NCBI GenBank assembly: GCA_947473305.1
Contig: CANJCB010000006.1
Location: forward strand, 1-64,000
Reading direction: 5' to 3'
DNA length: 64,000 bases
From: Rhodospirillales bacterium
GTDB taxonomy: Bacteria; Pseudomonadota; Alphaproteobacteria; ATCC43930; CGMCC-115725
The stretch's first letter is position 1. Each line of letters begins with the position of its first letter. Shown here one piece after another: positions 12,122-51,709 of the stretch. Under the pieces are notes generated by a model. That model made no database searches. It saw only the letters and a list, made by a program, of their open reading frames with translations, and was not told the origin of the DNA. The position numbers and the translations under genes were made by a program.

Positions 12122-12509
12122 GATCGGGCGGGTTTTTGCGAGGGAAGGCGGCGGCTTCGAGCTTGTTGCCGTCGGGGTCGAGAATGAAGGCGCCGTAATA
12201 GGCCGTCCGTTCGGCGCGGCGGATGCCGGGCTCGCCCGCGCTGGCGCCGCCGCCGGCCAGGGCCGCCTCGTGGAACGCGCGGACCGCCTCGTCGTCGGCC
12301 GCGCGCAGGCAGAGGTGAGCGCCCGTATCAGAGGGAAGCGCCGGCATCTCGGGACGGGCATTGAGCCAGAGTTCCGGATACTTCCGGCCGAAACCGACCG
12401 TGGCCGGCCGCTCCACGAGCCGGATATAGCCCAAGGGCGCCAGCAACCTTTCATAGAAGTCGCCGCTTGTACGGAGGTCGCGCACAGCGATAGAGACATG
12501 GTCGATCAT
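12114..12509 (-). CDS. VOC/glyoxalase-fold protein
   Basis: A 131-aa single-domain protein starting MIDHVSIAVRDL and ending with the usual DPDGNKLEAAAF, both typical of the vicinal-oxygen-chelate superfamily. Candidate metal ligands are His4, His66 (in GAHLCL) and the late Glu in NKLEA. Such proteins include glyoxalases, dioxygenases and resistance proteins; nothing here narrows the choice. It is convergent with the solute-binding protein gene. No signal peptide, presumably cytosolic. Confidence 0.8.
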   Translation of the reverse strand: MIDHVSIAVRDLRTSGDFYERLLAPLGYIRLVERPATVGFGRKYPELWLNARPEMPALPSDTGAHLCLRAADDEAVRAFHEAALAGGGASAGEPGIRRAERTAYYGAFILDPDGNKLEAAAFPRKNPPDLS

Positions 12510-32352: not shown

Positions 32353-33765
32353 ATGCCGTCGCAAGGGCAAGGCGTCTGGTCCACCCGCTTCATCGCGGCG
32401 GCGCTGATCCTGGCGCTGCCATCGGTCCTCGTGCTGGCGGCGCTCGCGGTCCTGACCGATCTCTCTGTGCTGGATGCCGTCCTGGGTGCGGTGAGCGCCG
32501 CTATCCTCACCTTCCTGATGCTCCGCCCGTTGTTCAACGGATTGCGTTCCGTGCGCAGCGGCCTCGACGAGATGTCCGAGGATCCTGAAGCCACGCCGGT
32601 CCTGCGCAGCGCGAGCCCGCTGGCTCATGAGGTCTGGGCAGCCGGGACCCGCCTTGCCAGGGCCTCGCGGCAGCGGCTCAAGGCGCGGGAAGCTGAACTC
32701 GTTTCCGCCAGGGCGGTGCTGTCGGCCTTGCCGGACCCTCTCCTGCTGCTCGACGAGAAGCGGCGGATCGTCAGCGCCAACCTGGCTGCGGCCGAACTCC
32801 TCGGCCCGCGTCTCGCCGACCGCGACCTAGCGGCGGCCTTGCGCAATCCGACGATCCTGGCAGGCGCCGACGCGGTTCTGGCGGGCGCACCGGGCCGGGT
32901 CGTCGAGTTCGATCTGTCGGGCCCGGTGGAACGGCATCTTTCGGCCCGCATCGCGCCCTTGAACCCTCGCACGCCGGAAGGGGCGGTGGCGGTCCTGACC
33001 TTGCACGATTTCACCGCCCTGAAGCGGTCGGAGCAGATGCGCGCGGATTTCGTCGCCAATTCGAGCCACGAATTGCGGACGCCCCTGGCGAGCCTTATCG
33101 GCTTTATCGAGACCCTGCGCGGCCCGGCCGCCGACGATCCCCAGGCCCAGGCGCGGTTCCTCGCGATCATGGCGGAGCAGGCGGGCCGCATGGCGCGGCT
33201 GGTGGACGACCTGCTTTCTTTGTCCCGCATCGAGATGAACGAGCACCTGCCGCCCACGGGGCAGGTCGATCTCGCTTCCGTCCTGGCCTCGATCGCCGAT
33301 GCGCTCGAACAGCGGGCGGCTTCCCGGGGCATGCGGATCGAGCTGACGTTTCCGTCAGGAATGCCTCGCGTGGCCGGCGATGCGGACGAACTGTCGCAGG
33401 TCTTCCAGAACCTCTTCGACAATGCGATCAAATACGGTCGGCTGAATACCTCCATCGAGGTCCGGGTCGCCTCCTCGCCGCGCATTCTGCCGGGCCGGCC
33501 GGCGGCCTTGGCGATTGCCGTGAGGGACCATGGGGAGGGCATCGCCCGCGAGCATCTGCCACGGCTCACCGAGCGTTTCTACCGGGTCGATGTGGCACGC
33601 TCGCGGGATCTGGGTGGAACCGGGCTCGGGCTCGCTATCGTGAAACACATCATCAACCGGCACCGGGGCTACCTCGATATCGACAGCGAGGTCGGCAAAG
33701 GCTCGGTTTTCACGGTGCATCTGCCGGTCGCAGCCTCTTCTCCCGCGGGCGTCACAAATCCGTAG
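32353..33765 (+). CDS. phoR: Phosphate regulon sensor histidine kinase PhoR
   Basis: A 470-aa membrane sensor kinase. Two hydrophobic segments lie at about 11-35 and 38-60 with almost no periplasmic loop, as in PhoR. A linker and PAS-like region (about 115-225) follows, then the HisKA motif SSHELRTPL (His239). The ATPase domain has N-box NLFDNAIKYG, G1 DHGEGI and G2 GTGLGLAIVKHI. It phosphorylates PhoB when phosphate is limiting and is held inactive by PstSCAB/PhoU. The order maeB-phoR-pstS...phoB puts kinase and regulator at opposite ends of the locus. A GTCACA half-site near its 3' end belongs to the Pho-box region. Confidence 0.95.
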   Translation: MPSQGQGVWSTRFIAAALILALPSVLVLAALAVLTDLSVLDAVLGAVSAAILTFLMLRPLFNGLRSVRSGLDEMSEDPEATPVLRSASPLAHEVWAAGTRLARASRQRLKAREAELVSARAVLSALPDPLLLLDEKRRIVSANLAAAELLGPRLADRDLAAALRNPTILAGADAVLAGAPGRVVEFDLSGPVERHLSARIAPLNPRTPEGAVAVLTLHDFTALKRSEQMRADFVANSSHELRTPLASLIGFIETLRGPAADDPQAQARFLAIMAEQAGRMARLVDDLLSLSRIEMNEHLPPTGQVDLASVLASIADALEQRAASRGMRIELTFPSGMPRVAGDADELSQVFQNLFDNAIKYGRLNTSIEVRVASSPRILPGRPAALAIAVRDHGEGIAREHLPRLTERFYRVDVARSRDLGGTGLGLAIVKHIINRHRGYLDIDSEVGKGSVFTVHLPVAASSPAGVTNP

Positions 33766-33798
33766 CCGTCACATATCGGTAACAAAACCGTAATATCC
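33766..33798 (+). promoter_or_regulatory. Pho box of the pst operon (three 11-bp repeats)
   Basis: Three direct repeats in exact 11-bp register lie between phoR and pstS: CCGTCACATAT, CGGTAACAAAA and CCGTAATATCC (33766-33776, 33777-33787, 33788-33798). The spacing and sequence match PhoB-binding sites, whose consensus half-site is close to CTGTCAT. PhoB bound here would activate transcription of pstS onward. No strong -35 is present, as expected for a PhoB-dependent promoter. Confidence 0.8.
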
Positions 33799-33887: not shown

Positions 33888-34961
33888 GTGATCATCAACC
33901 GCAGGACCCTGTTCGGAGCGCTGATGGGCGCTCTGACAATTGCGTCCCTCCCCGCTTTGACCGCCCCTGCCCAGGCCGCCGAAATTTCGGGCGCCGGCGC
34001 CACCTTCCCCTATCCGATCTACGCGAAGTGGGCCGAGGCCTATAAGGCCAAGACCGGGACCGCGATGAACTACCAGTCGATCGGCTCGGGCGGCGGCATC
34101 AAGCAGATCCAAAGCAAGACCGTCGATTTCGGCGCGTCCGACATGCCGCTGACCACGGCGGAACTCGACAAGTCCGGTCTGATGCAGTTCCCGATGATCA
34201 TGGGCGGCGTCGTGCCGGTCGTGAACATCGAAGGCGTGAAGCCCGGCGAGCTGAAGCTCGACGGCGAGACCCTCGCCAGCATCTATCTCGGCAAGATTTC
34301 CAAGTGGAACGATGCCGCCATCGCCAAGCTCAACCCCAGCCTCAAGCTGCCGAACCAGGCGATCGCCGTGGTGCAGCGCTCGGACGGATCGGGCACGACC
34401 TTCATCTTCACCAACTACCTCTCGAAGGTGAGCGCGGACTGGAAGTCCAAGGTCGGCGAGAACGCCTCCGTCGAATGGCCGGTGGGTCAGGGCGGCAAGG
34501 GCAATGAAGGCGTTTCCGCCATTACCAGCCGCACGGCGGGCGCGATCGGCTATGTCGAATACGCCTATGCCAAGCAGAACAAGATGACCTACGTCCTCTT
34601 GAAGAATAAGGACGGCGAGTTCGCCGCTCCCGAAAGCAAGGCCTTTCAGGCCGCCGCCGCCGGGGCCGATTGGGCGAAGGCGCCGGGCTTCTACCTCCTG
34701 CTGACCGATCAGCCCGGCAAGGACAGCTGGCCGATCACCGGCGCCAGTTTCATCCTGATGTACAAGACCCAGGACAAGCCCGCCATCGCCAAGGAAGTGC
34801 TCGACTTCTTCACCTGGTCCTATGCGAGCGGCGGGAAGATGGCCGACGATCTCGACTATGTCCCGATGCCCGAGGCTGTCGTGAAGATGGTCGAAGAGAC
34901 CTGGAAGAAGGACATCAAGGACGCGTCCGGCAAGCCGATCTGGACCGCCGCCAAGATGTAA
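33888..34961 (+). CDS. pstS: Phosphate-binding periplasmic protein PstS
   Basis: A 357-aa periplasmic receptor for high-affinity phosphate uptake. GTG start with GAAGGAGAT upstream. The signal peptide carries NRRTLFG and ends QAAE, so Tat or Sec export is possible. The mature protein begins ISGAGATFPYPIYAKW, and phosphate-contacting motifs are SIGSGGGIKQI, DFGASDMPL and QRSDGSGTTFIFTNYL. First gene of the pst operon behind the Pho box. A stable hairpin follows the gene before pstC. Confidence 0.97.
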   Translation: MIINRRTLFGALMGALTIASLPALTAPAQAAEISGAGATFPYPIYAKWAEAYKAKTGTAMNYQSIGSGGGIKQIQSKTVDFGASDMPLTTAELDKSGLMQFPMIMGGVVPVVNIEGVKPGELKLDGETLASIYLGKISKWNDAAIAKLNPSLKLPNQAIAVVQRSDGSGTTFIFTNYLSKVSADWKSKVGENASVEWPVGQGGKGNEGVSAITSRTAGAIGYVEYAYAKQNKMTYVLLKNKDGEFAAPESKAFQAAAAGADWAKAPGFYLLLTDQPGKDSWPITGASFILMYKTQDKPAIAKEVLDFFTWSYASGGKMADDLDYVPMPEAVVKMVEETWKKDIKDASGKPIWTAAKM

Positions 34962-35062: not shown

Positions 35063-36025
35063 GTGGCCGATATCGCTCTCAAGGAAACGCGCGGCAAGCC
35101 GTTTCAGAACCTCTTCGACAGAGTGTTCCACGGCACCACTTGGTTCTTCGCGATGCTGGTGCTGGCCATCCTCGGCGGCGTGATCGTCTCGCTGCTCGAT
35201 GGCGCGATCCCGGCTTTCAGAACCTTCGGCTGGAATTTCCTGGTCACGTCGAACTGGAACCCGGTCACCGAGAAATTCGGAGCGCTCCCGGCGATCTACG
35301 GCACCCTGGTCACCTCGGCGATTGCCATGGTTGTGGCCGTGCCTATCGCCTTCGGGATCACGATCTTCATCACCGAACTTTGCCCCCCCTGGCTCAAGCG
35401 GTCCTTGAGCACGGCGATAGAACTGCTGGCGGCGGTGCCGAGCATCATCTATGGCATCTGGGGCCTGTTCGTTTTCGCCCCCTTCCTGCAAGAGACACTG
35501 CAGCCTCTGTTGATTGAGACGCTCGGCGAGATCCCGGTGATCGGGGCTTTGTTCGACGGTCCCCCGCTCGGCATCGGCATCCTGACCGCCGGGCTCATCC
35601 TGGCCATCATGGTCCTGCCCTTCATCTCGGCGGTGATGCGGGACGTCTTCGAGACCGTGCCGCCGATGCTGAAGGAATCGGCCTATGGGCTTGGGTGCAC
35701 GACCTGGGAAGTCGTCTGGAACGTCGTCCTGCCTTTCACCCGCGTGGGCGTTATCGGCGCCGTCATGCTGGGCCTCGGCCGCGCGCTCGGCGAAACCATG
35801 GCGGTCACCTTCGTCATCGGTAACGCGCATCGCATCAAGGCCTCGCTTCTGGCGCCTGGAACCACTATTTCGGCGACCTTGGCCAATGAATTCACCGAGG
35901 CGACGGGAGAGGCCTATATCTCCACGCTTTTCGCCATCGGCTTCATCCTATTTGTGATTACCCTGATGGTCCTCGTGGTCGCCAAACTCATGTTGATGCG
36001 GCTCCAGAAGCAGGCGGGGAACTAG
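35063..36025 (+). CDS. pstC: Phosphate ABC transporter permease PstC
   Basis: A 320-aa inner-membrane permease with six main hydrophobic segments. GTG start preceded by CAAGGAACC. The binding-protein-dependent transport signature (EAA loop) is the stretch [20 protein letters not shown], which contacts PstB, and the later [16 protein letters not shown] is typical of PstC. Pairs with PstA, which follows 4 nt later. Confidence 0.96.
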
Positions 36026-36029
36026 GACG

Positions 36030-36872
36030 ATGAACCTCTACGCCCGCCGCCGCAGCACCAATACCCTGGTCCTGGCCCTATCCCTGGGCGCGACGGCCAT
36101 CGGCGTCATCGCGCTTGCGGCGATCCTCTGGACCCTGATCGGCGAGGGAATTGCCGGCATGAGTCTAGCGCTTTTCACCCAGACGACGCCCCCGCCCGGC
36201 AGCAAGGGGGGGCTGATGAATGCGATCTACGGCAGTTTGATTATGACCGGCCTCGCCACTTTGATCGGAACCCCCGTCGGCATCCTCGCAGGGACCTACC
36301 TTTCCGAATATGCCCGGCACAACAAGCTGGGCGAGGTGGTGCGTTTCATCAACGACCTCCTGTTGAGCGCGCCCTCGATCATCATCGGGCTTTTCGTCTA
36401 CGAGCTGATGGTGGTCCGCATGGGCCATTTCTCGGCCTGGGCGGGTAGTGTCGCCTTGGCGATCATCGTCATCCCGGTCGTCGTCCGTACCTCGGAGAAC
36501 ATGCTCAACCTCGTGCCGATCGCCCTGCGCGAAGCGGCGGCCGCTTTGGGCGCTCCTAAGTGGAAAGTCGTGGTGATGGTTTCCTACCGCGCCGCGCTTC
36601 AGGGGATGATCACGGGCGTCATGCTCGCGGTGGCGCGGATCGCCGGTGAAACCGCCCCCCTTCTTTTCACCGCGCTCAACAACCAGTTCTTCAGCACGAA
36701 CATGAACGCCCCGATGGCCAATCTCCCGGTCGTCATCTTCCAGTTCGCGTTGAGCCCCTATACCGACTGGCAGTCGCTGGCGCTTGCCGGAGCCCTGTTG
36801 ATTACGATCGCGATCCTCATCCTCAACATCCTCGCGCGGATGGTCGCAAGCTGGAGCAGCTTCACGAAATGA
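36030..36872 (+). CDS. pstA: Phosphate ABC transporter permease PstA
   Basis: A 280-aa inner-membrane permease, the partner of PstC. Signatures include [31 protein letters not shown], the EAA loop [19 protein letters not shown] and [17 protein letters not shown]. The last codons overlap the PstB start (ATGA type), indicating translational coupling. Normal length. Confidence 0.96.
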
Positions 36873-37720
36873 CAGACCTCTCGTCGCCGTCGGGCCAGAC
36901 CCGGCCTCTCACTTTCTCCTCCGTCACCACGAGCATGGCGCGGCCCGAAAAGGCCATCGATACCGCCAAGGTGAAGGTCGAGATCAAGGACCTGCACTTT
37001 CACTACAAGAAATTCCATGCGCTGAAGGGCATAAACCTGCCGCTTCGCGACAAGCGGGTGACGGCCTTCATCGGACCCTCGGGCTGCGGGAAATCCACCT
37101 TGCTGCGCGTGCTGAATCGTATCTACGGGCTCTACCCCGATCAGGTGGCGACGGGCCAAGTCCTGGTCGACGGCAAGAATATCCTGGACCCGGGCATCGA
37201 CCTCAATCTGCTGCGCGCCAAGATCGGCATGGTGTTTCAGAAGCCGACCCCTTTCCCCATGTCGATCTACGACAATGTGTCTTTCGGGATCCGGCTTTAC
37301 GAAAAGCTGAGCCCCAGCGACCTCGACGAGCGGGTGGAGCAGGCGCTGCGCCGGGCCGCGCTCTGGGACGAGGTGAAGGACAAGCTGCGCCAAAGCGGCT
37401 TGAGCCTCTCGGGCGGTCAGCAGCAGCGGCTCTGCATCGCGCGCGGTATCGCGGTGAAGCCCGAAATCCTGCTGCTCGACGAGCCCGCCTCGGCGCTCGA
37501 TCCGATTTCAACCCAGCGCATCGAAGAGCTGATCGCCGAGTTGAAGTCCGACTATTGCATCGCCATCGTCACCCACAACATGCAGCAGGCGGCGCGCAGC
37601 TCGGACTACACAGCCTTCATGTATCTCGGCGAGCTCATCGAGTTCGACGAGACCGAAGCGATCTTCACCCGCCCGAAAAAGAAGCAGACCGAAGACTACA
37701 TCACCGGCCGCTTCGGCTGA
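36869..37720 (+). CDS. pstB: Phosphate ABC transporter ATPase PstB
   Basis: A 283-aa ATPase. The first 35 residues are a non-conserved Ser/Thr-rich extension not found in short PstB proteins. The core has Walker [11 protein letters not shown]-loop [10 protein letters not shown], signature [16 protein letters not shown], Walker [14 protein letters not shown] and H-loop THNMQQA. It energises uptake and, with PhoU, relays phosphate status to PhoR. Start ATG overlaps pstA by 4 nt. Confidence 0.97.
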
Positions 37721-37734
37721 GCAGGATCACGCCC

Positions 37735-38460
37735 ATGGCATCCGAACACATCATCAAGAGCTACGACGAGGAACTTAAGCGCCTCAACGACACGATCTGC
37801 CAGATGGGTGGTCTCGCGGAGACGCAACTCTCCGCGGCAATGGAGGCGGTCACCAAGCGCGACACGGATCTCGCCGCCAAAGTCGTCGAGGGCGACCGTC
37901 AGGCCGATCAATACGAGCGCGAGGTTGAAGCTCTCGTGGTCCGGCTCCTGGCGCTTCGCCAACCGATGGGCCGCGATCTGCGCGAGATCCTGTCGGCGCT
38001 CAAGATCGCCAGCGATCTCGAACGCATGTGCGACTACGCCGCCAATGTGGCGAAGCGTTCCATCGTGCTGAGCCATGTCCCGCCGGTGCGCCCGGCCTTC
38101 GCGCTTCCCCGCATGGCCCGGCTCGCCGAGGTCATGACGAAGGACGTGGTGGACGCCTATGTCGAGCGCGACGCGGAACAGGCCATTGACGTCTGGATGC
38201 GCGACGAAGAGATCGACGAGATGTATTCGAGCCTCTTCCGCGAGCTTCTGACCTATATGATGGAGGATCCGCGGAACATCACCGCCTCCACCCATCTGCT
38301 CTTCATCGCCAAGAACATCGAGCGGATCGGCGATCACGCCACCAATATCGCCGAGACGATCTACTTCCTGGTGAACGGCAAGCCGCTCGACCAGATCCGG
38401 CCCAAGCGCGACCGTACCAGCCTGTCGGGCGGCCCCGACGCCGAGGGTGAAAAGACATGA
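37735..38460 (+). CDS. phoU: Phosphate signalling complex protein PhoU
   Basis: A 241-aa all-helical protein made of two three-helix bundles that links PstB to PhoR and represses the Pho response in high phosphate. Each half carries a metal-binding helix motif: ASDLERMCDYAANVAKR in the first and AKNIERIGDHATNIAE in the second. The ATG at 37735 follows GCAGGA and lies 14 nt after pstB; the frame is open further upstream through pstB, but that is a shadow. It overlaps phoB by 4 nt. Confidence 0.96.
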   Translation: MASEHIIKSYDEELKRLNDTICQMGGLAETQLSAAMEAVTKRDTDLAAKVVEGDRQADQYEREVEALVVRLLALRQPMGRDLREILSALKIASDLERMCDYAANVAKRSIVLSHVPPVRPAFALPRMARLAEVMTKDVVDAYVERDAEQAIDVWMRDEEIDEMYSSLFRELLTYMMEDPRNITASTHLLFIAKNIERIGDHATNIAETIYFLVNGKPLDQIRPKRDRTSLSGGPDAEGEKT

Positions 38461-39149
38461 AGCAAACCGTCCTGGTCGTCGAAGACGAGCCGGCGATCCT
38501 CACGCTCCTCCGCTATAATCTCGAGCGCGAGGGGTTTTCGGTCTCCGAGGCGCGCGACGGCGAGGAGGCGCTGACCCAGCTCGAAGAGCGCCGGCCCGAC
38601 GCTGTGCTGCTGGACTGGATGTTGCCACTGGTTTCCGGCATCGAGGTCTGCCGCCGCATCCGCCGCGCGCCGGCCTGGCGGGACCTGCCGGTTATCATGC
38701 TGACCGCCCGCACCGAGGAAGGCGACCGTATCCGCGGCCTCGACAGCGGCGCCGACGACTATGTGGTGAAGCCTTTCAGCCCCAACGAGCTGATCGCGCG
38801 GCTCCGGGCGGTGATCCGCCGGGCGCGTCCCGCCACGGCGGCGGAAACCCTGGAATTCGCCGATGTCTCGCTCGATCTCGCGGGGCACCGGGTGTCGCGG
38901 GGAGGGACTCCGATCCATCTCGGACCCACGGAATTCAGGTTGCTGCGCTATCTCATGGAGCGGCCGGGGCGCGTCTTCTCCCGCGAGCAGCTTTTGGATG
39001 CGGTCTGGGGCCATGACGCCTATGTCGAGCCGCGCACCGTCGATGTGCATATCCGGCGTCTGCGCAAGGCCATGAACGACGGGGACCGGACGGATCTCAT
39101 CCGCACGGTGCGGACCGCCGGCTATTCCCTCGACTTGTCCCAGGTCTGA
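38457..39149 (+). CDS. phoB: Phosphate regulon response regulator PhoB
   Basis: A 230-aa OmpR-family regulator. The receiver has acidic residues at 10-11, phospho-acceptor Asp53 in LLDWMLP, the conserved Thr in MLTAR and Lys in VVKPFSP. The C-terminal winged helix contains the PhoB-type GPTEFRLLRYLMERPGRVFSR and the recognition region RTVDVHIRRLRKAM. It binds 11-bp-spaced Pho boxes like those found at 33766 and 44166. Last gene of the pst operon. Confidence 0.97.
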   Translation: MKQTVLVVEDEPAILTLLRYNLEREGFSVSEARDGEEALTQLEERRPDAVLLDWMLPLVSGIEVCRRIRRAPAWRDLPVIMLTARTEEGDRIRGLDSGADDYVVKPFSPNELIARLRAVIRRARPATAAETLEFADVSLDLAGHRVSRGGTPIHLGPTEFRLLRYLMERPGRVFSREQLLDAVWGHDAYVEPRTVDVHIRRLRKAMNDGDRTDLIRTVRTAGYSLDLSQV

Positions 39150-42984: not shown

Positions 42985-44058
42985 TTAGGAAGCCTTCACT
43001 TTGCTCCTGGAGGCTTCCACGGCGAGAAGGTTCTCCTTCCGCCCGAGGCCCCAGCGATAACCGCCCAGCGTCCCATCCTCGCGAAGGACGCGGTGGCAGG
43101 GGATCGCCAGGGAGACCCTATTGCTGGCGCAGGCCCGCGCCACCGCGCGGATCGCGGTCTGCTGGCCGATCGCTCGGGCGATCTCGCTGTAGGTCGCCGT
43201 CTCGCCATAGGGGATGCGCTGGAGTTCCTGCCAGACCCGCCATTGGAAGGCGGTCGCCTGGAGGTCGAGCGGCAGGACGAGTTGCGGTTGCTTGCCTTCT
43301 ATATGGGCGACGATCGCCTCGACCGACGGCCCGAGCGCTTCGTCGTTGCGACGGATCGTGGCGGCGGAATACTCCTGATGCAGCGCCTTCTCCAAGGTGC
43401 CGGGATCGTCCCCCAAAGTCACCGCCGAGATGCCCCGGTTCGTTGCGGCCACCAGCATCAAGCCGAGGAAGGTGGGGGCGATTGTGAAAGCGATCTCCAT
43501 CCCCTTCCCATGCTTGGCATAGGTCGCGGGGGTCATTCCGAGTTGCGCATCCGACCGCTCGTAGAGCCGGGATGAAGATCCGTAGCCGGCTTCATAGAGC
43601 GAACCGGTGACGCCTTCGCCGTCCCGCAGCCGCTCCTTGACCAGGGCCAGGCGCTGCGCATCGGCATAACCCCGCGGCGAGATTCCGAGATGGCGCTTGA
43701 ACAGGCGCTGGAGATGAAAGGGGCTCGATCCCACCGCTTCTGCAAGCTCGACCAAAGTCGGCACGCCCGAGTCGCCGTCGCGAACAGCCGTTTCGATGAC
43801 CTGGCAAGCCGCTCTCACCTTCGCGACGGCGGGATCGGGGGTGGCCAGGTCCTTCGGCTTGCAGCGCTTGCAGGCCCGGAAGCCTGCCCGTTCCGCCGCC
43901 TCGGGCATGTCGAAGAAGCGCACGCCTTCGCGGCGCGGGCGGCGGCTGGGACAGGACGGCCGGCAATAGATCCCGGTGCTCTCGACGCCATAGAAGAAGG
44001 TTCCGTCGGCGCTTTGCGACCGGTCCAGAACCGCCTGCCAGCGTTGGTCTTCCGCCAT
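42985..44058 (-). CDS. ada: Bifunctional Ada: methylation-response regulator and O6-methylguanine-DNA methyltransferase
   Basis: A 357-aa full-length Ada. The N-terminal zinc-methylphosphotriester domain has Cys32, Cys36, Cys63 and Cys66 (YCRPSC and ACKRC). An AraC-type helix-turn-helix follows (FHLQRLFKRHLGISPRGYADAQR). The C-terminal methyltransferase has the active Cys321 in IPCHRV, the same position as in E. coli Ada. It repairs alkylated DNA and activates its own regulon after methylation. The ATG at 44058 follows GAGGAACG; the frame is open to 44109. It is divergent from the anion ABC operon, with 248 nt between. Confidence 0.96.
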   Translation of the reverse strand: MAEDQRWQAVLDRSQSADGTFFYGVESTGIYCRPSCPSRRPRREGVRFFDMPEAAERAGFRACKRCKPKDLATPDPAVAKVRAACQVIETAVRDGDSGVPTLVELAEAVGSSPFHLQRLFKRHLGISPRGYADAQRLALVKERLRDGEGVTGSLYEAGYGSSSRLYERSDAQLGMTPATYAKHGKGMEIAFTIAPTFLGLMLVAATNRGISAVTLGDDPGTLEKALHQEYSAATIRRNDEALGPSVEAIVAHIEGKQPQLVLPLDLQATAFQWRVWQELQRIPYGETATYSEIARAIGQQTAIRAVARACASNRVSLAIPCHRVLREDGTLGGYRWGLGRKENLLAVEASRSKVKAS

Positions 44059-44165
44059 GATCGTTCCTCTCCTCAGCATCATAGTGAGAGATAGGCAGGC
44101 CGGTGTCATGAGGCTATCCGATCCTTGCGGTCGAAGCGAAATGGGTCAATAGCCGGATGGGGCGG

Positions 44166-44187
44166 CCGTCACATCACGGTAACAAAG
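44166..44187 (+). promoter_or_regulatory. Pho-box-like site upstream of the anion ABC transporter operon
   Basis: CCGTCACATCA and CGGTAACAAAG are two 11-bp repeats in register. They match the first two repeats of the pst Pho box (33766-33787) at 19 of 22 positions. The third pst repeat is not conserved here. The site is 119 nt upstream of the permease ATG at 44307 and 108 nt from the divergent ada start. The resemblance is direct sequence evidence; regulation by PhoB is inference. Confidence 0.6.
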
Positions 44188-44306
44188 TCAGGCCATGGTG
44201 CTGCCCGCCAGGGACAGAGCGCTGAGGGCTCTTCTTTCCGCTTCGTCCCGGTCGCCCGATGGGGTAAACCTCGCGGCGTCTCGTACAACGTCAGCCGGAG
44301 AAGGGG

Positions 44307-46049
44307 ATGCAGCAGCGCTGGGGCTTGCCCATCGTCGCCTGGCCGGCTCGCCTGCGCCCGGGCCTTTGGGACGTCGTCGCCTTGCCCCTGGTGATCGGCG
44401 CGATCGTGCTGATCGGCTGGGCGATGAAGGAGATGAGCGTCCCCTATCAAGCCGGGGACGAGCTGCCGATCTCGCTCGATCCCTGGATGCTGCCCGAATA
44501 TGGCTTGCGGTCCGTGCTGCGCATGGGCATCGCGCTCTGCTTCTCGCTCGTCTTCAGCCTGGCCTATGCGGCCCTCGCGGCCAAGAGCCCGCGGGCGGAA
44601 AAATTGATGGTCCCGGTGCTCGACATCCTCCAGTCGGTGCCGATCCTGGGCTTCCTGTCGATCACGGTGACGGGCTTCATCGCGATCTTTCCGGGCAGCC
44701 TGCTCGGCTATGAATGCGCGGCGATCTTCGCGATCTTCACGTCCCAGGCCTGGAACATGACCTTCAGCCTCTACCAGTCCTTCCGGGCGGTGCCGGTCGA
44801 ACTGCGCGAGGCGGCGCGGATGTATCATCTTTCCGCCTGGGAGACTTTCTGGCGGCTGGAGGTCCCTTACGCCCTGCCGAACCTCGTCTGGAACATGATG
44901 ATGTCGGTTTCGGGCGGCTGGTTCTTCGTGGTCGCCTCGGAGGCGATCACGGTGGCGGGCCAGAATACCTCGCTGCCGGGCATCGGATCCTATATCGCCC
45001 TGGCGATCGACCAGCGCGACCTCGCCGCGGTGGGCTGGGCGATCATCGCCATGGGCGGCTTCATCCTGATCTACGACCAGCTCCTCTTCCGGCCGCTGCT
45101 GGCCTGGTCGCAGCGTTTCAAGGTCGAGGCGATCACCTCGGACGAAAGCGAGGATGCCTGGTTCCTGACCATGCTGCGGCGGGCGCAGGTCTTCCGCATC
45201 GTCACCTTCGTGACCGACATCGTCGTCGGGCGGATGAGCCGACTCTACCAACGTCTGGCGCCGCCGCGCAGGGTCCGGGCGCGCGAGGTTTCCCATACCT
45301 ATAGTCGCGGGATCGATATCGCCTGGGCGGCGGTATTGGTGTTAGGGGCCGCCTGGTCGCTCTACGAGGTGATCGTCTTCGCCACGACCGAGGTCGGCTG
45401 GAGCGAGGTGCTTCGCGTCGTCCTGCTGGGCTGCGCCACCATGGTCCGGGTCGTCGTGCTGGTCGCCTTGGCTTCGCTCGTCTGGGTGCCGATCGGCGTC
45501 TGGATCGGGTTGAGGCCCGCCGTCGCGCATCGCGCCCAGCCGATCGTCCAGTTCCTGGCGGCCTTCCCGGCAAATCTCTTTTTCCCCGTCGTCGTCTTCC
45601 TGATCGTTCAGTTCCACCTCAACGTCGAGATCTGGGTCAGCCCGCTGATGATCCTCGGGACCCAGTGGTACATCCTCTTCAACGTGGTCGCGGGGACCCT
45701 GGCGCTGCCCACCGACTACATATTGGTGGCGAGCAACTTGGGCGTCTCGCGCTGGCTCTGGTGGCGGCGGCTCATCCTGCCGGCGATCTTTCCGGCCTAT
45801 GTGACGGGGGCGGTGACGGCGTCGGGCGGATCCTGGAACGCGGCCATCGTTGCCGAGGTTGTGAAGTGGGGCGACACCAAGCTCGTCGCTACGGGCATCG
45901 GCGCCTATATCGCGGATAACACCCAGGCGGGCGATTTCCCGCGCATCGCGCTCGGCATCACGGTGCTGGCGCTCTTCGTGCTGGCTTTCAACGGCCTCGT
46001 GTGGCGGCGGCTCTATAACCTTGCCGAAGAACGGCTGCGGCTCGATTGA
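44307..46049 (+). CDS. ABC transporter permease with two fused permease domains (COG4986-like)
   Basis: A 580-aa inner-membrane protein containing two complete binding-protein-dependent permease domains. The first half spans about 20-270, with EAA loop LREAARMYHLSAWETFWRLE. The second spans about 335-575, with the loop containing ASNLGVSRWLWWRRLILPAI. A central hydrophilic linker is rich in Glu/Asp then Arg. This layout is that of the duplicated permease of anion ABC systems related to NitT/TauT. GGAGAAGGGG directly precedes the ATG. The ATPase gene follows 12 nt later and there is no binding-protein gene. Likely an importer of an inorganic or organic anion; the site at 44166 suggests phosphate-starvation control. 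Confidence 0.88.
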   Translation: MQQRWGLPIVAWPARLRPGLWDVVALPLVIGAIVLIGWAMKEMSVPYQAGDELPISLDPWMLPEYGLRSVLRMGIALCFSLVFSLAYAALAAKSPRAEKLMVPVLDILQSVPILGFLSITVTGFIAIFPGSLLGYECAAIFAIFTSQAWNMTFSLYQSFRAVPVELREAARMYHLSAWETFWRLEVPYALPNLVWNMMMSVSGGWFFVVASEAITVAGQNTSLPGIGSYIALAIDQRDLAAVGWAIIAMGGFILIYDQLLFRPLLAWSQRFKVEAITSDESEDAWFLTMLRRAQVFRIVTFVTDIVVGRMSRLYQRLAPPRRVRAREVSHTYSRGIDIAWAAVLVLGAAWSLYEVIVFATTEVGWSEVLRVVLLGCATMVRVVVLVALASLVWVPIGVWIGLRPAVAHRAQPIVQFLAAFPANLFFPVVVFLIVQFHLNVEIWVSPLMILGTQWYILFNVVAGTLALPTDYILVASNLGVSRWLWWRRLILPAIFPAYVTGAVTASGGSWNAAIVAEVVKWGDTKLVATGIGAYIADNTQAGDFPRIALGITVLALFVLAFNGLVWRRLYNLAEERLRLD

Positions 46050-46061
46050 CGGAGACGGGAA

Positions 46062-47366
46062 ATGATTGAACTCCCCCTGGTCGAGGCAAAGCAAGTCTCG
46101 AAGACCTATCAGACGCCGGACCACGCGGGCCGGCTTGTGCTGGACAGCATCGATTTCTCCCTCCGCGAGGGCGAGATCGTAGCCCTGCTCGGCAAGTCGG
46201 GCTCCGGCAAGTCCACCTTCCTGCGCACGATCGCCGGCCTGACGCAGCCGACCGGCGGGAGCGTCGTCTATCGGGGCCGGGACGTGCTGGGTCCGGCCCA
46301 CGGCATCGCCATGGTGTTCCAGAGCTTCGCGCTCTTTCCCTGGCTCACGGTGCTCGGCAACGTCGAATTGGGGCTCGAAGCCCAGGGCGTGCCGAAGCAG
46401 GAACGGCGCCAGCGCGCCTTGAAAGCCATCGATCTGATTGGACTTGACGGCTTCGAATCGGCCTATCCCAAGGAATTGTCGGGCGGCATGCGGCAGCGGG
46501 TGGGCTTCGCCCGGGCGCTCGTGGTCAATCCCGACGTGCTTCTCCTCGACGAGCCCTTCTCGGCGCTCGACGTGCTGACGGCGGAGACCCTGCGCGGCGA
46601 TCTCATGGATCTCTGGACCGAGCGGCGGGTGCCGACGAAGGGCATCATCCTGGTGTCCCATAACATCGAGGAGGCGGTGGAGATCGCCGACCGGATCATC
46701 GTCTTCGCGAGCGATCCCGGTCGCATCCGCGCGATCATTCCGATCAAGCTGCCCCATCCCCGCGACTATGCGAGCCCGGCCTTCCGCCAGATCGTCGACG
46801 AGGTCTATGGGTTGCTGACCACCGTCCCCGGTCGCGAAGGCGGCAAGCGGGGACAGAAGGCGGAGCCTCTGGGCTTGGGATATCGCCTGCCGAGCGCTTC
46901 GGTCCAGCAGTTGAACGGTCTTCTCGACACGCTGATGGAGCCGCCTTTCAAGGGCCGGGCCGACCTGCCCCATCTGGCGGAAGCGGTTTCCCTGAACGAC
47001 GACGATATGCTGGTGCTGATCGAAGCGGTCCAGATCATGGGCTTCGCCAATGTGGGCGGCGGCGATATCGAGGCGACCGCCTCCGGCCGGAAATTCGCCA
47101 ATGCCGACATGGAGGAGCGCAAGCAGCTCTTCGCCAAGGCGCTTCTGGCCCAGATCCCGCTCGCGGCGCATATCCGCCGGGTGCTCGACGAGCGGCCCGG
47201 CCATGCCGCGCCGGAAACCCGCTTCCTGCGCGAGTTGGAGGACTACCTCAGCGAGGAGGAGGCCGAGCGGGTCCTCGAGTCAGTCATCAACTGGGGCCGC
47301 TACGCCGAGATCTTCGCCTATGACTACGACCGCGGCGTCTTGAGCCTGGAAAATCCGGGAGCCTGA
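46062..47366 (+). CDS. ABC transporter ATPase with C-terminal AAA-associated domain
   Basis: A 434-aa ATPase of the NitT/TauT/SsuB type. Residues 1-260 hold Walker A GKSGSGKST, Q-loop MVFQSFALFPW, signature LSGGMRQRVGFARALV, Walker B VLLLDEPFSALD and H-loop SHNIEEA. A C-terminal half (about 280-434) has no transporter motifs and matches the AAA-associated C-terminal domain found with duplicated anion permeases. It may sense ligand or substrate status, which is inference. It converges with lysS, 8 nt apart. Confidence 0.9.
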   Translation: MIELPLVEAKQVSKTYQTPDHAGRLVLDSIDFSLREGEIVALLGKSGSGKSTFLRTIAGLTQPTGGSVVYRGRDVLGPAHGIAMVFQSFALFPWLTVLGNVELGLEAQGVPKQERRQRALKAIDLIGLDGFESAYPKELSGGMRQRVGFARALVVNPDVLLLDEPFSALDVLTAETLRGDLMDLWTERRVPTKGIILVSHNIEEAVEIADRIIVFASDPGRIRAIIPIKLPHPRDYASPAFRQIVDEVYGLLTTVPGREGGKRGQKAEPLGLGYRLPSASVQQLNGLLDTLMEPPFKGRADLPHLAEAVSLNDDDMLVLIEAVQIMGFANVGGGDIEATASGRKFANADMEERKQLFAKALLAQIPLAAHIRRVLDERPGHAAPETRFLRELEDYLSEEEAERVLESVINWGRYAEIFAYDYDRGVLSLENPGA

Positions 47367-49172: not shown

Positions 49173-50150
49173 ATGAATACCCGGTTGCCACGCATTTTGG
49201 GCGCCGCTTTCGCAGCCGTCCTGGCCTGGGGCGCCACCGCCCAGGCCGCCGACGTGAAGCAGGTCCGCCTCGATTACGCCTATTACAATCCGGTCAGCCT
49301 CGTGCTGAAGGAAAAGGGCTGGTTCGAGGAAGAGTTCAAGAAGGACGGCATCGCCGTCGAATGGGTTTTGAGCCTCGGCAGCAACAAGGCGCTGGAATTC
49401 CTCAACGGGAACAGCATCGATCTGGGATCGACCGCCGGCTCCGCCGCCCTTCTCGCCAAGGCCAACGGCAACCCGATCAAGGCGGTTTATATCTATTCTA
49501 AGCCCGAATGGACCGCGCTCGTGACGGGCAAGAACTCCGCCATCAAGACGGTGCAGGACCTCAAGGGCAAGCGGATCGCGGTGACCCGGGGCACCGATCC
49601 TCATATCTTCCTGCTGCGCGCGCTGAGTGGCGCCGGTCTCGCGCCCAACGACGTGAAGATGGTGCTGCTCCAGCATCCCGACGGGAAGACCGCCTTGGAG
49701 AAGGGCGACGTGGACGCCTGGGCCGGGCTCGACCCCTATATGGCGCAGACCGAGCTTGAGGAGGGCTCCAAGCTCTTCTTCCGCAACGCCGATCTCAACA
49801 CCTATGGCTTCCTCAATGTCCGCGAGGACTTTGCCAAGGCCAATCCCGACCTCGTGGTCCGCGTCATCGCGACCTATGAGAAAGCCCGGAAGTGGTCCCT
49901 GGCGAATCCCGGTGAACTGAAGGCGATCATCGCCAAGGCGGCGAAGCTGACCGATGCGGTGGCGGCCAGGCAGCTGGAGCGCAACGACCTCTCCTCCGGC
50001 GTGATCGGCAAGACCCAACGGGATGCCATCGTCGCGGCGGGCGGCGTCTTGAAGGAAAGCGGCGTGGTGCCCGCGGACACCAATATTGCCGCGGTGGCGG
50101 ACTCGCTGATCGACCCGCAATACGTCACGCGGGCTGTGGCCCAGAAGTAA
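49173..50150 (+). CDS. ssuA: Aliphatic-sulfonate-type ABC substrate-binding protein
   Basis: A 325-aa periplasmic binding protein of the SsuA/TauA family. A signal peptide (1-25, ending AQAAD) precedes the mature start VKQVRLDYAYYNPVSLVLKEKGW. Family motifs are GSTAGSAALLAKANGNPIKAVYIY, LKGKRIAVTRGTDPHIFLLRAL and VDAWAGLDPYMAQTE. GAGGAG precedes the ATG. The ligand is most probably a sulfonate or other sulfur compound, supported by the SAM-II switch upstream. No SsuD-type monooxygenase gene is in the cluster. Confidence 0.9.
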   Translation: MNTRLPRILGAAFAAVLAWGATAQAADVKQVRLDYAYYNPVSLVLKEKGWFEEEFKKDGIAVEWVLSLGSNKALEFLNGNSIDLGSTAGSAALLAKANGNPIKAVYIYSKPEWTALVTGKNSAIKTVQDLKGKRIAVTRGTDPHIFLLRALSGAGLAPNDVKMVLLQHPDGKTALEKGDVDAWAGLDPYMAQTELEEGSKLFFRNADLNTYGFLNVREDFAKANPDLVVRVIATYEKARKWSLANPGELKAIIAKAAKLTDAVAARQLERNDLSSGVIGKTQRDAIVAAGGVLKESGVVPADTNIAAVADSLIDPQYVTRAVAQK

Positions 50151-50172
50151 GCCAAGAGTGGAGGAGAGCACG

Positions 50173-51012
50173 ATGAAGGCCTTGGCTTTTCTCGGACGGG
50201 GTATCAAGCGGAGCGGTCTGCTCGGCTTCGTGTTCCCAGTTCTCCTCCTCCTCGTCTGGGAAAGCCTCTCGCGCTTCGGTATCGTGCGGGCGAGCCTGCT
50301 CCCGCCGCCCTCGGCCGTGGCCTTGACGCTTCGCGATCTCGCCCGTTCCGGCGAGCTTCTGGGACATATCGAGGTCACGCTGATGCGGGTGGCCTTCGGC
50401 TTTGCCGGGGGCACGCTGGCGGCGACGGTGCTGGGGGCGCTCACCGGCTATTCCGATCTTTGGCGGCGGCTGCTCGATCCCCTGCTCCAGGCGATCCGCA
50501 GCATTCCCTCCATCGCCTGGGTGCCGCTTTTCGTCCTCTGGCTCGGGATTTTCGAGGCGTCGAAGGATACGCTGATCGCGGTCGGCGTCTTCTTCCCCGT
50601 CTATCTCAACCTGATGGCGGGCATCCAGCAGGTCGATCGCAAGCTGGTGGAGGTAGCCCGGGTCCATGGCTATCGCGGTGTGGCGCTGGTTCGCTATGTC
50701 CTGCTGCCGGCGACCTTGCCGACCTATATCACCGGCTTGCGCGGCGGACTTGGCCTCGGTTGGATGTTCGTGATCGCCGCCGAACTCATGGGTGCCAGCG
50801 AGGGCCTGGGCTTCCTGCTGATCGACGGGCAGCAGACCGGCCGACCCGCCATCATCATCGCCAGCATCCTGCTGTTCGGCTGCTTCGGGAAATTGAGCGA
50901 CATGGCACTGGCCCGGATCGGGCAGCGGTTCACCGGCTGGCAGGATTCCTTCAAGGCCGCCAAGGAGAAAGAAGCCAATGCTTCGGATCGATCGGGTCTC
51001 CAAGCGATTTGA
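50173..51012 (+). CDS. ssuC: ABC transporter permease (SsuC-like)
   Basis: A 279-aa inner-membrane permease with about six hydrophobic segments and the EAA loop VEVARVHGYRGVALVRYVLLP. The ATG at 50173 follows GTGGAGGAGAGC; a GTG at 50158 is in frame but overlaps this Shine-Dalgarno. It starts 22 nt after ssuA and its end overlaps the ATPase gene by 35 nt. Confidence 0.9.
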   Translation: MKALAFLGRGIKRSGLLGFVFPVLLLLVWESLSRFGIVRASLLPPPSAVALTLRDLARSGELLGHIEVTLMRVAFGFAGGTLAATVLGALTGYSDLWRRLLDPLLQAIRSIPSIAWVPLFVLWLGIFEASKDTLIAVGVFFPVYLNLMAGIQQVDRKLVEVARVHGYRGVALVRYVLLPATLPTYITGLRGGLGLGWMFVIAAELMGASEGLGFLLIDGQQTGRPAIIIASILLFGCFGKLSDMALARIGQRFTGWQDSFKAAKEKEANASDRSGLQAI

Positions 51013-51709
51013 GAACGGGCTCGCCGCCCTCTCGCCGGTCGATCTGACGATCGAGCGGGGCGAGATCGTCGGGCTCGTCGGCACCAGCGGCTGCGGCAAG
51101 AGCACGCTCCTGCGGATCGCCTGCGGACTGGAGACGCCCACCACCGGCGAGGTGATCCTCGACGGCGAGCCGGTTACCGAGCCGCGCTCGGAAGTCGGCA
51201 TCGTCTTCCAGGAGCCGCGCCTGATGCCCTGGCTCACCGTCCGGCAGAACGTGGGCTTCGCGCTGTCAAAATTCTCGAAGTCCCGCCGGGGGCCGCTGAT
51301 CGACGCGGCGCTTCACAAGGTCGGGCTCACCGCCTTCGCCGATGCGCTGCCGCAGCAATTGTCCGGCGGCATGGCCCAGCGCGCCGCCATCGCCCGCGCG
51401 CTCGTGGCCCGGCCTTCGGTGCTGCTCCTCGACGAGCCCTTCAGCGCGCTCGATGCCTTTACCCGGCTCGGGCTTCAGGACCATCTCCTGGACATCTGGC
51501 GCGAGGACAAGCCGACCCTTCTCTTCGTCACCCACGACATCGAGGAAGCGCTGGTTCTTAGCGACCGGATCGTCGTCATGCGCGCCAAGCCCGGTCGGAT
51601 CCACGCGCAATACGAGATCGACCTGCCCCGCCCGCGCCGCCGCGCCGATCCGCGCCTCCAGGTCTGGAAGGAGCGGCTGCTGCAGGACCTGGATCTCGTC
51701 GCCGCTTAG
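50978..51709 (+). CDS. ssuB: ABC transporter ATPase (SsuB-like)
   Basis: A 243-aa ATPase with Walker A GTSGCGKST, Q-loop IVFQEPRLMPW, signature LSGGMAQRAAIARALV, Walker B VLLLDEPFSALD and H-loop THDIEEA. The last part, YEIDLPRPRRR, is typical of nitrate/sulfonate transporters. It overlaps ssuC by 35 nt and the convergent SbmA-like gene by 4 nt. Part of the SAM-II-controlled unit. Confidence 0.92.
   Translation: MLRIDRVSKRFENGLAALSPVDLTIERGEIVGLVGTSGCGKSTLLRIACGLETPTTGEVILDGEPVTEPRSEVGIVFQEPRLMPWLTVRQNVGFALSKFSKSRRGPLIDAALHKVGLTAFADALPQQLSGGMAQRAAIARALVARPSVLLLDEPFSALDAFTRLGLQDHLLDIWREDKPTLLFVTHDIEEALVLSDRIVVMRAKPGRIHAQYEIDLPRPRRRADPRLQVWKERLLQDLDLVAA

Follow-up and report, generated by a model that had tools for sequence, protein, structure and literature searches.

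A predicted Pho box upstream of an orphan ABC transporter operon with a duplicated permease in a Rhodospirillales bacterium

When is an ABC transporter made, if neither a substrate nor an inducer has become known since its type was described? The type is widespread, and one of its operons lies in the window, as we call the whole stretch of 64,000 nucleotides from a Rhodospirillales bacterium that was analysed here. The original prediction had pointed to a short element in front of this operon, resembling the Pho box of the pst genes in the same window, and had raised the possibility that the operon belongs to the PhoB regulon. The features around the element are listed below.

42985 to 44109, reverse strand: divergent ada (Ada methyltransferase/regulator)
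44166 to 44187, forward strand: predicted Pho box, two 11-bp direct repeats, CCGTCACATCA and CGGTAACAAAG, facing the ABC operon
44194 to 44199, forward strand: candidate -10, CATGGT, a weak match, 10 nt past the second heptamer
44297 to 44306, forward strand: putative ribosome-binding site GGAGAAGGGG, assigned by eye, 5' of the ATG at 44307
44307 to 46049, forward strand: fused (duplicated) ABC permease, 580 aa, NtrB-like
46062 to 47366, forward strand: ABC ATPase, 434 aa, with an NrtD/CmpD-like ATPase domain and a C-terminal AAA_assoc_C domain (PF09821)

The transporter had been described as having a fused permease and a modified ATPase, and this is what we find. The permease holds two BPD_transp_1 domains, and the ATPase carries an extra C-terminal domain, matched by PF09821 with an E-value of 5.7e-42 (143.5 bits vs a cut-off of 27.6). 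The operon consists of these two genes, with no binding-protein gene, and the PF09821 ATPase and its transporter are present in a single copy in the genome. In an AlphaFold2 model of the ATPase (with 44 relatives; mean pLDDT 85.6), the C-terminal region shows helices and short strands, ordered much as in a winged helix. A fold search with the model, up to residue 318 or so, placed the ATPase domain nearest to the solved structures of the nitrate and bicarbonate transporters NrtD/CmpD (VIA-align Z 30.0-31.6 over about 250 residues, rmsd 1.9-2.6, 34-37% identity). Against the NrtB nitrate permease model TIGR01183 the permease scored 80.8 bits, under the equivalog cut-off of 209.

Judged by its sequence, the window operon is a member of the duplicated-permease, Nrt/Ssu/Tau-like type. 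Li et al. 2012 described CLIBASIA_02415/02420 of Ca. Liberibacter asiaticus as a “possible novel ABC system” of this kind, with a winged-helix ATPase tail, no binding protein and no known substrate (PMC3688454). The two systems share the tandem transmembrane domains in one protein, the PF09821 tail of the ATPase and the lack of a binding-protein gene, and they differ in the predicted Pho box of the window operon, a promoter comparison that covers the window side only. The cyanobacterial nitrate and bicarbonate transporters NrtBCD and CmpBCD resemble the window system in the fold of the ATPase domain and in the NtrB-like permease halves. Unlike in these transporters, the window permease is duplicated in one chain, the ATPase has the PF09821 tail and the operon is without a binding protein; the NtrB score far under the equivalog cut-off further separates it from NrtBCD. 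The Ca. L. asiaticus system has also been named “ABC-type anion transport system, duplicated permease component”, and its homolog is in the essential-gene set of Liberibacter crescens (PMC4837290). In the same study, the Ca. L. asiaticus homolog was listed as 7.24-fold up in planta, in a table that gives 7.28 for pstB, a parallel rise that is suggestive only. The papers found on PF09821 or the Liberibacter genes give no substrate.

The regulator that the element would call for is encoded in the same window, where the phoR-pst-phoB locus is intact, with both phoR and phoB present.

32353 to 33765, forward strand: phoR, sensor kinase
33766 to 33798, forward strand: reference pst Pho box, three 11-bp repeats, CCGTCACATAT, CGGTAACAAAA and CCGTAATATCC, between phoR and pstS
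33888 to 34961, forward strand: pstS
35063 to 38460, forward strand: remaining pst operon, assigned, as are its genes, by position and sequence
Starts at 35063 and 36030, forward strand: two pst permease genes
Start at 36869, forward strand: pst ATPase gene
Within the open reading frame ending at 38460, forward strand: phoU-like gene
38457 to 39149, forward strand: phoB, exceeding the TIGR02154 equivalog cut-off

The predicted recognition helix of this PhoB, RTVDVHIRRLRKA, does not differ from the one in E. coli PhoB (1gxp). The same genome has a second pst locus on contig C16 (L188; pstS at 12239), with a Pho box of its own (CTGTCGCGAGT, TTGTCACAAGG and CAGTAACGTCC), whose final heptamer is followed at ten bases by TAGTCT.

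How closely does the element match the pst box? The letters at 44166-44187 on the forward strand are exactly CCGTCACATCACGGTAACAAAG, 119 bp 5' of the ATG of the 580-aa gene, and they form Pho-box-like repeats with TGTCA-like heptamers. The identity of 19 of 22 positions to the first two pst repeats (33766-33787), in a common 11-bp register, is exact as it had been given, with two repeats in the predicted box and three in the pst box. Throughout the 4.7-Mb genome, only pst and this site match the pst box repeats with at most three mismatches, while a reversed control pattern had no matches in the same search. Within the 64-kb window these two matches compare with none expected from 100 dinucleotide shuffles, and a looser pattern, CNGTNAYANNNCNGTNAYA, has exact matches only at pst (in two registers) and at 44166-44187. 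The E. coli consensus CTGTCATAWWWCTGTCAT, tried as a probe, had no window match with up to three mismatches, and the local Pho box was therefore learned from pstS promoters of the GTDB family.

For this purpose, 26 Pho boxes from pstS promoters of the family were turned into a position matrix. Our own genome was excluded, which avoids testing the site against the sequence that first drew notice to it. In the window, the matrix ranked the pst sites highest (21.4 and 19.5), followed by 44166-44187 at 15.4; the next-best score, 14.3, was inside a pst permease gene on the opposite strand. The 220-bp upstream region of the operon reached p = 0.0005, the floor of 2000 dinucleotide shuffles. CGGTCTT-type repeats were found within pst promoters of the family as well. 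In about 61 kb of real sequence, from five loci around these operons, sites scoring at least 8.5 were rare, approximately nine besides those of the operons themselves. Similar 19-bp matrix scores are also reached by other sequences genome-wide, some of them within genes, so the matrix score by itself is not specific. A de novo dyad search placed TGTC/TGT pairs with an 11-bp period in its top ten, and because unrelated dyads were found there too, it does not stand alone.

The proposed check was conservation of the site in front of orthologous operons, and its outcome is divided. Permease orthologs are present in most genomes of the GTDB family, and extending the search from family to order gave no additional ones. 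Close orthologs, defined by a permease identity of at least 70%, come from the genera g4, g6, g8 and g10, besides our own genome. In all of them, the best site is on the forward strand, toward the operon, 66 to 188 bp 5' of the start codon, and the minus strand scored at most 3.6 in 12 of 12 upstream regions. Dinucleotide-shuffle p-values were 0.0005 for L004, L005 and L011, 0.002 for L013, 0.006 for L007, 0.0095 for L216, a modest 0.017 for L006, and 0.02-0.08 for L008-L010 and L012, all of one genus. Combined by Fisher's method, with one median per genus and our own genome excluded, they gave p = 4.8e-6. The scores of genus g10, whose four members are near relatives, are marginal. Orthologs with 60-68% permease identity had no site (Fisher p 0.75), and 80 named relatives (Burkholderia, Pandoraea, Cupriavidus, Pseudomonas, Rouxiella, Bradyrhizobium and others) had no convincing one upstream. 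Among these wider relatives, p was below 0.05 in 12 of 75 and below 0.01 in three, the best being L039 (Rhodospirillales) and L041/L046. Conservation thus stands for the close-ortholog clade, marginally so for g10, and fails for the 60-68% orthologs and most wider relatives; distant orthologs, paralogs and beta- and gammaproteobacterial relatives are mostly without a site.

In the permease tree, all box-bearing operons, including those of g10, belong to one clade (support 99/98), which makes a single gain the simplest history. Pho-box control was thus probably gained once, in the ancestor of five related genera. When the 250-bp upstream regions of two species of the same genus were compared by blastn (L011 vs L013 in g4, L004 vs L216 in g6), the sole match, 39-42 bp long, covered the box together with the -10 position. 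The upstream neighbours, named from their sequence and, for the binding protein gene, by Pfam, vary from ada to a nitronate monooxygenase, an SCP2-like gene or a binding protein gene, which indicates that the box goes with the transporter.

The sites outside the clade are isolated exceptions, which may be due to chance or to separate recruitment. A paralogous operon with 54% identity (L213, G018 contig C456) has a site, CTGCCATAGGG CTGTAACACTT, at -112 with a score of 15.2, so that Pho control may have more than one origin. Further sites are CTGTCATTCGC CCGTCATCTAG at -124 in L207 (G107; score 11.4) and an upstream site scoring 14.2 in L195 (G085). Another paralogous operon (L192, G002 contig C571) lies approximately 3 kb from a pstS whose own Pho box scores 20.4. 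Strong Pho-box-like sites on the minus strand are present at -37 in L014 (G038), toward a divergent glycosyltransferase-like gene, and near -130 in L030 and L031, with the common sequence TGTCACATAA facing away from the operon.

The position of the predicted box suggests how it might work. CATGGT, although weak as a -10, starts at an offset of 28 from the box, which is 6 mod 11, the same phase as in the family pst promoters, where 12 of 18 TAnnnT motifs are found at 6 mod 11 relative to the box. A main TAnnnT phase in pst promoters is expected if PhoB replaces the -35 contact. At the offset of CATGGT, the relatives carry TAAACC (L011, L013) or TACACC (L004, L216). For E. coli, it has been emphasised that the distance from pho box to core promoter is strict (PMC10294691). 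The PhoB-activated promoters reviewed in PMC4415409, pstS for example, have the same traits: two 11-nt direct repeats with a conserved heptamer in head to tail orientation, and a box 5' of a -10 in helical register, for which the window has the weak candidate CATGGT. The window also resembles them in having phoR-pst-phoB nearby and the same PhoB recognition helix. Unlike promoters of the pstS type, the window operon has only two repeats, predicted from sequence, and a weak -10.

Conserved, operon-facing sites before orthologs in five genera make PhoB control of the transporter operon likely in this clade. We also consider it probable that 44166-44187 is a PhoB site that serves as activator of the promoter of the two-gene operon at 44307-47366. 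At low phosphate, PhoR would phosphorylate PhoB, and two PhoB molecules in head-to-tail arrangement would occupy the pair of 11-bp repeats. PhoB would then bring sigma70-RNA polymerase to the weak -10, ten bases further on, and the duplicated permease and the winged-helix-tailed ATPase would be made together with Pst. For the window operon we infer that PhoB binds, that it activates and does not repress, and that this -10 is used. Membership of the PhoB regulon, as originally proposed, is accordingly supported by the ortholog conservation, the register of box and candidate -10, and the E. coli-identical PhoB helix. The literature searched does not list the transporter operon as a Pho member, and it is likely a new predicted member of the regulon, in which the mechanism is ordinary and the transporter an orphan.

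Other readings of the element are less probable. It is unlikely to be a chance TGTCA-like direct repeat, to which PhoB either does not bind in the cell or binds without effect, even though many of the PhoB sites mapped in E. coli are transcriptionally inert (PMC10294691), the genome offers similar 19-bp scores elsewhere and the -10 is weak. Those inert sites lie mostly within genes and lack conservation (PMC10294691), whereas this one is intergenic, oriented, kept before orthologous operons and the only match in the genome, next to pst itself, with at most three mismatches to the pst box.

OmpR-family regulators have the recognition of tandem direct repeats in common, and a different response regulator of the OmpR/PhoB family could use a similar TGTCA repeat here. 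Several sites do deviate from CTGTCAT, with CTGTCTT in L011 and L013 and GTGCCAC in L216. Yet these sites are picked by a matrix built from pstS promoters only, CGGTCTT-type repeats belong to the family pst promoters too, and the register of box and candidate -10 is the one of pst promoters; we regard such a regulator as quite improbable. That the box serves ada is conceivable from its position in the intergenic region common to ada and the operon, but the box faces the other way. Relatives have different genes where the window has ada, and they keep the box, invariably toward the transporter; it does not travel with ada, whose control by this box is highly improbable. The preferred reading thus remains a PhoB site for the transporter operon.

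What, then, is transported? A phosphorus- or phosphonate-related anion had been deduced from regulon membership, and this deduction is not upheld. In S. meliloti, a Pho-box operon is predicted to encode iron transport (PMC8829014). The C-P lyase gene PhnJ is found in 5 of 39 family genomes; our own genome carries it on another contig, and it is absent from G012, G013, G016 and G019, all of which have good boxes at the operon. A role as phosphonate transporter is not supported, as PhnJ occurrence does not track the boxed operon. With non-phosphorus transporters in Pho regulons, and with PhnJ not following the box, a phosphorus substrate does not follow from membership, and the ATPase is nitrate/bicarbonate-like. 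Among 80 wider loci, the ATPase was the sole neighbour family recurring across genera at the operon, and none named a substrate. We tentatively put forward, as a rather doubtful reading, a dedicated phosphate-starvation uptake system, recruited once into the Pho regulon in the ancestor of these genera, with binding proteins encoded elsewhere. It would take up a phosphorus oxyanion or a phosphate-sparing anion, for example sulfonate for phosphorus-free lipids.

The search for a partner binding protein found a divergent NMT1-type gene adjoining the operon in G012 and G013 only. In these two genomes (L189, L190; query L013:3463-4479), a single NMT1/SsuA-like binding-protein family numbers 34 and 35 genes, against none or one in the other genomes of the GTDB family. 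Their divergent copy, in a common Pho-box intergenic region with the operon, is a candidate partner binding protein. In the window itself, an ABC operon of the SsuA type (49173-51709), complete with binding protein, permease and ATPase, lies close to the orphan operon and has no matrix site of 10 or more.

The element had further been expected to give the first functional lead for this type of transporter, which is too strong. The essential-gene set of Liberibacter crescens (PMC4837290) is an earlier lead, and more distant orthologs and most paralogs lack the box. A Pho box names no substrate, and most of the sampled distant orthologs are without one. For one clade of a widespread transporter type, however, a conserved Pho box would make phosphate starvation a concrete growth condition to try and would single out a promoter for study.
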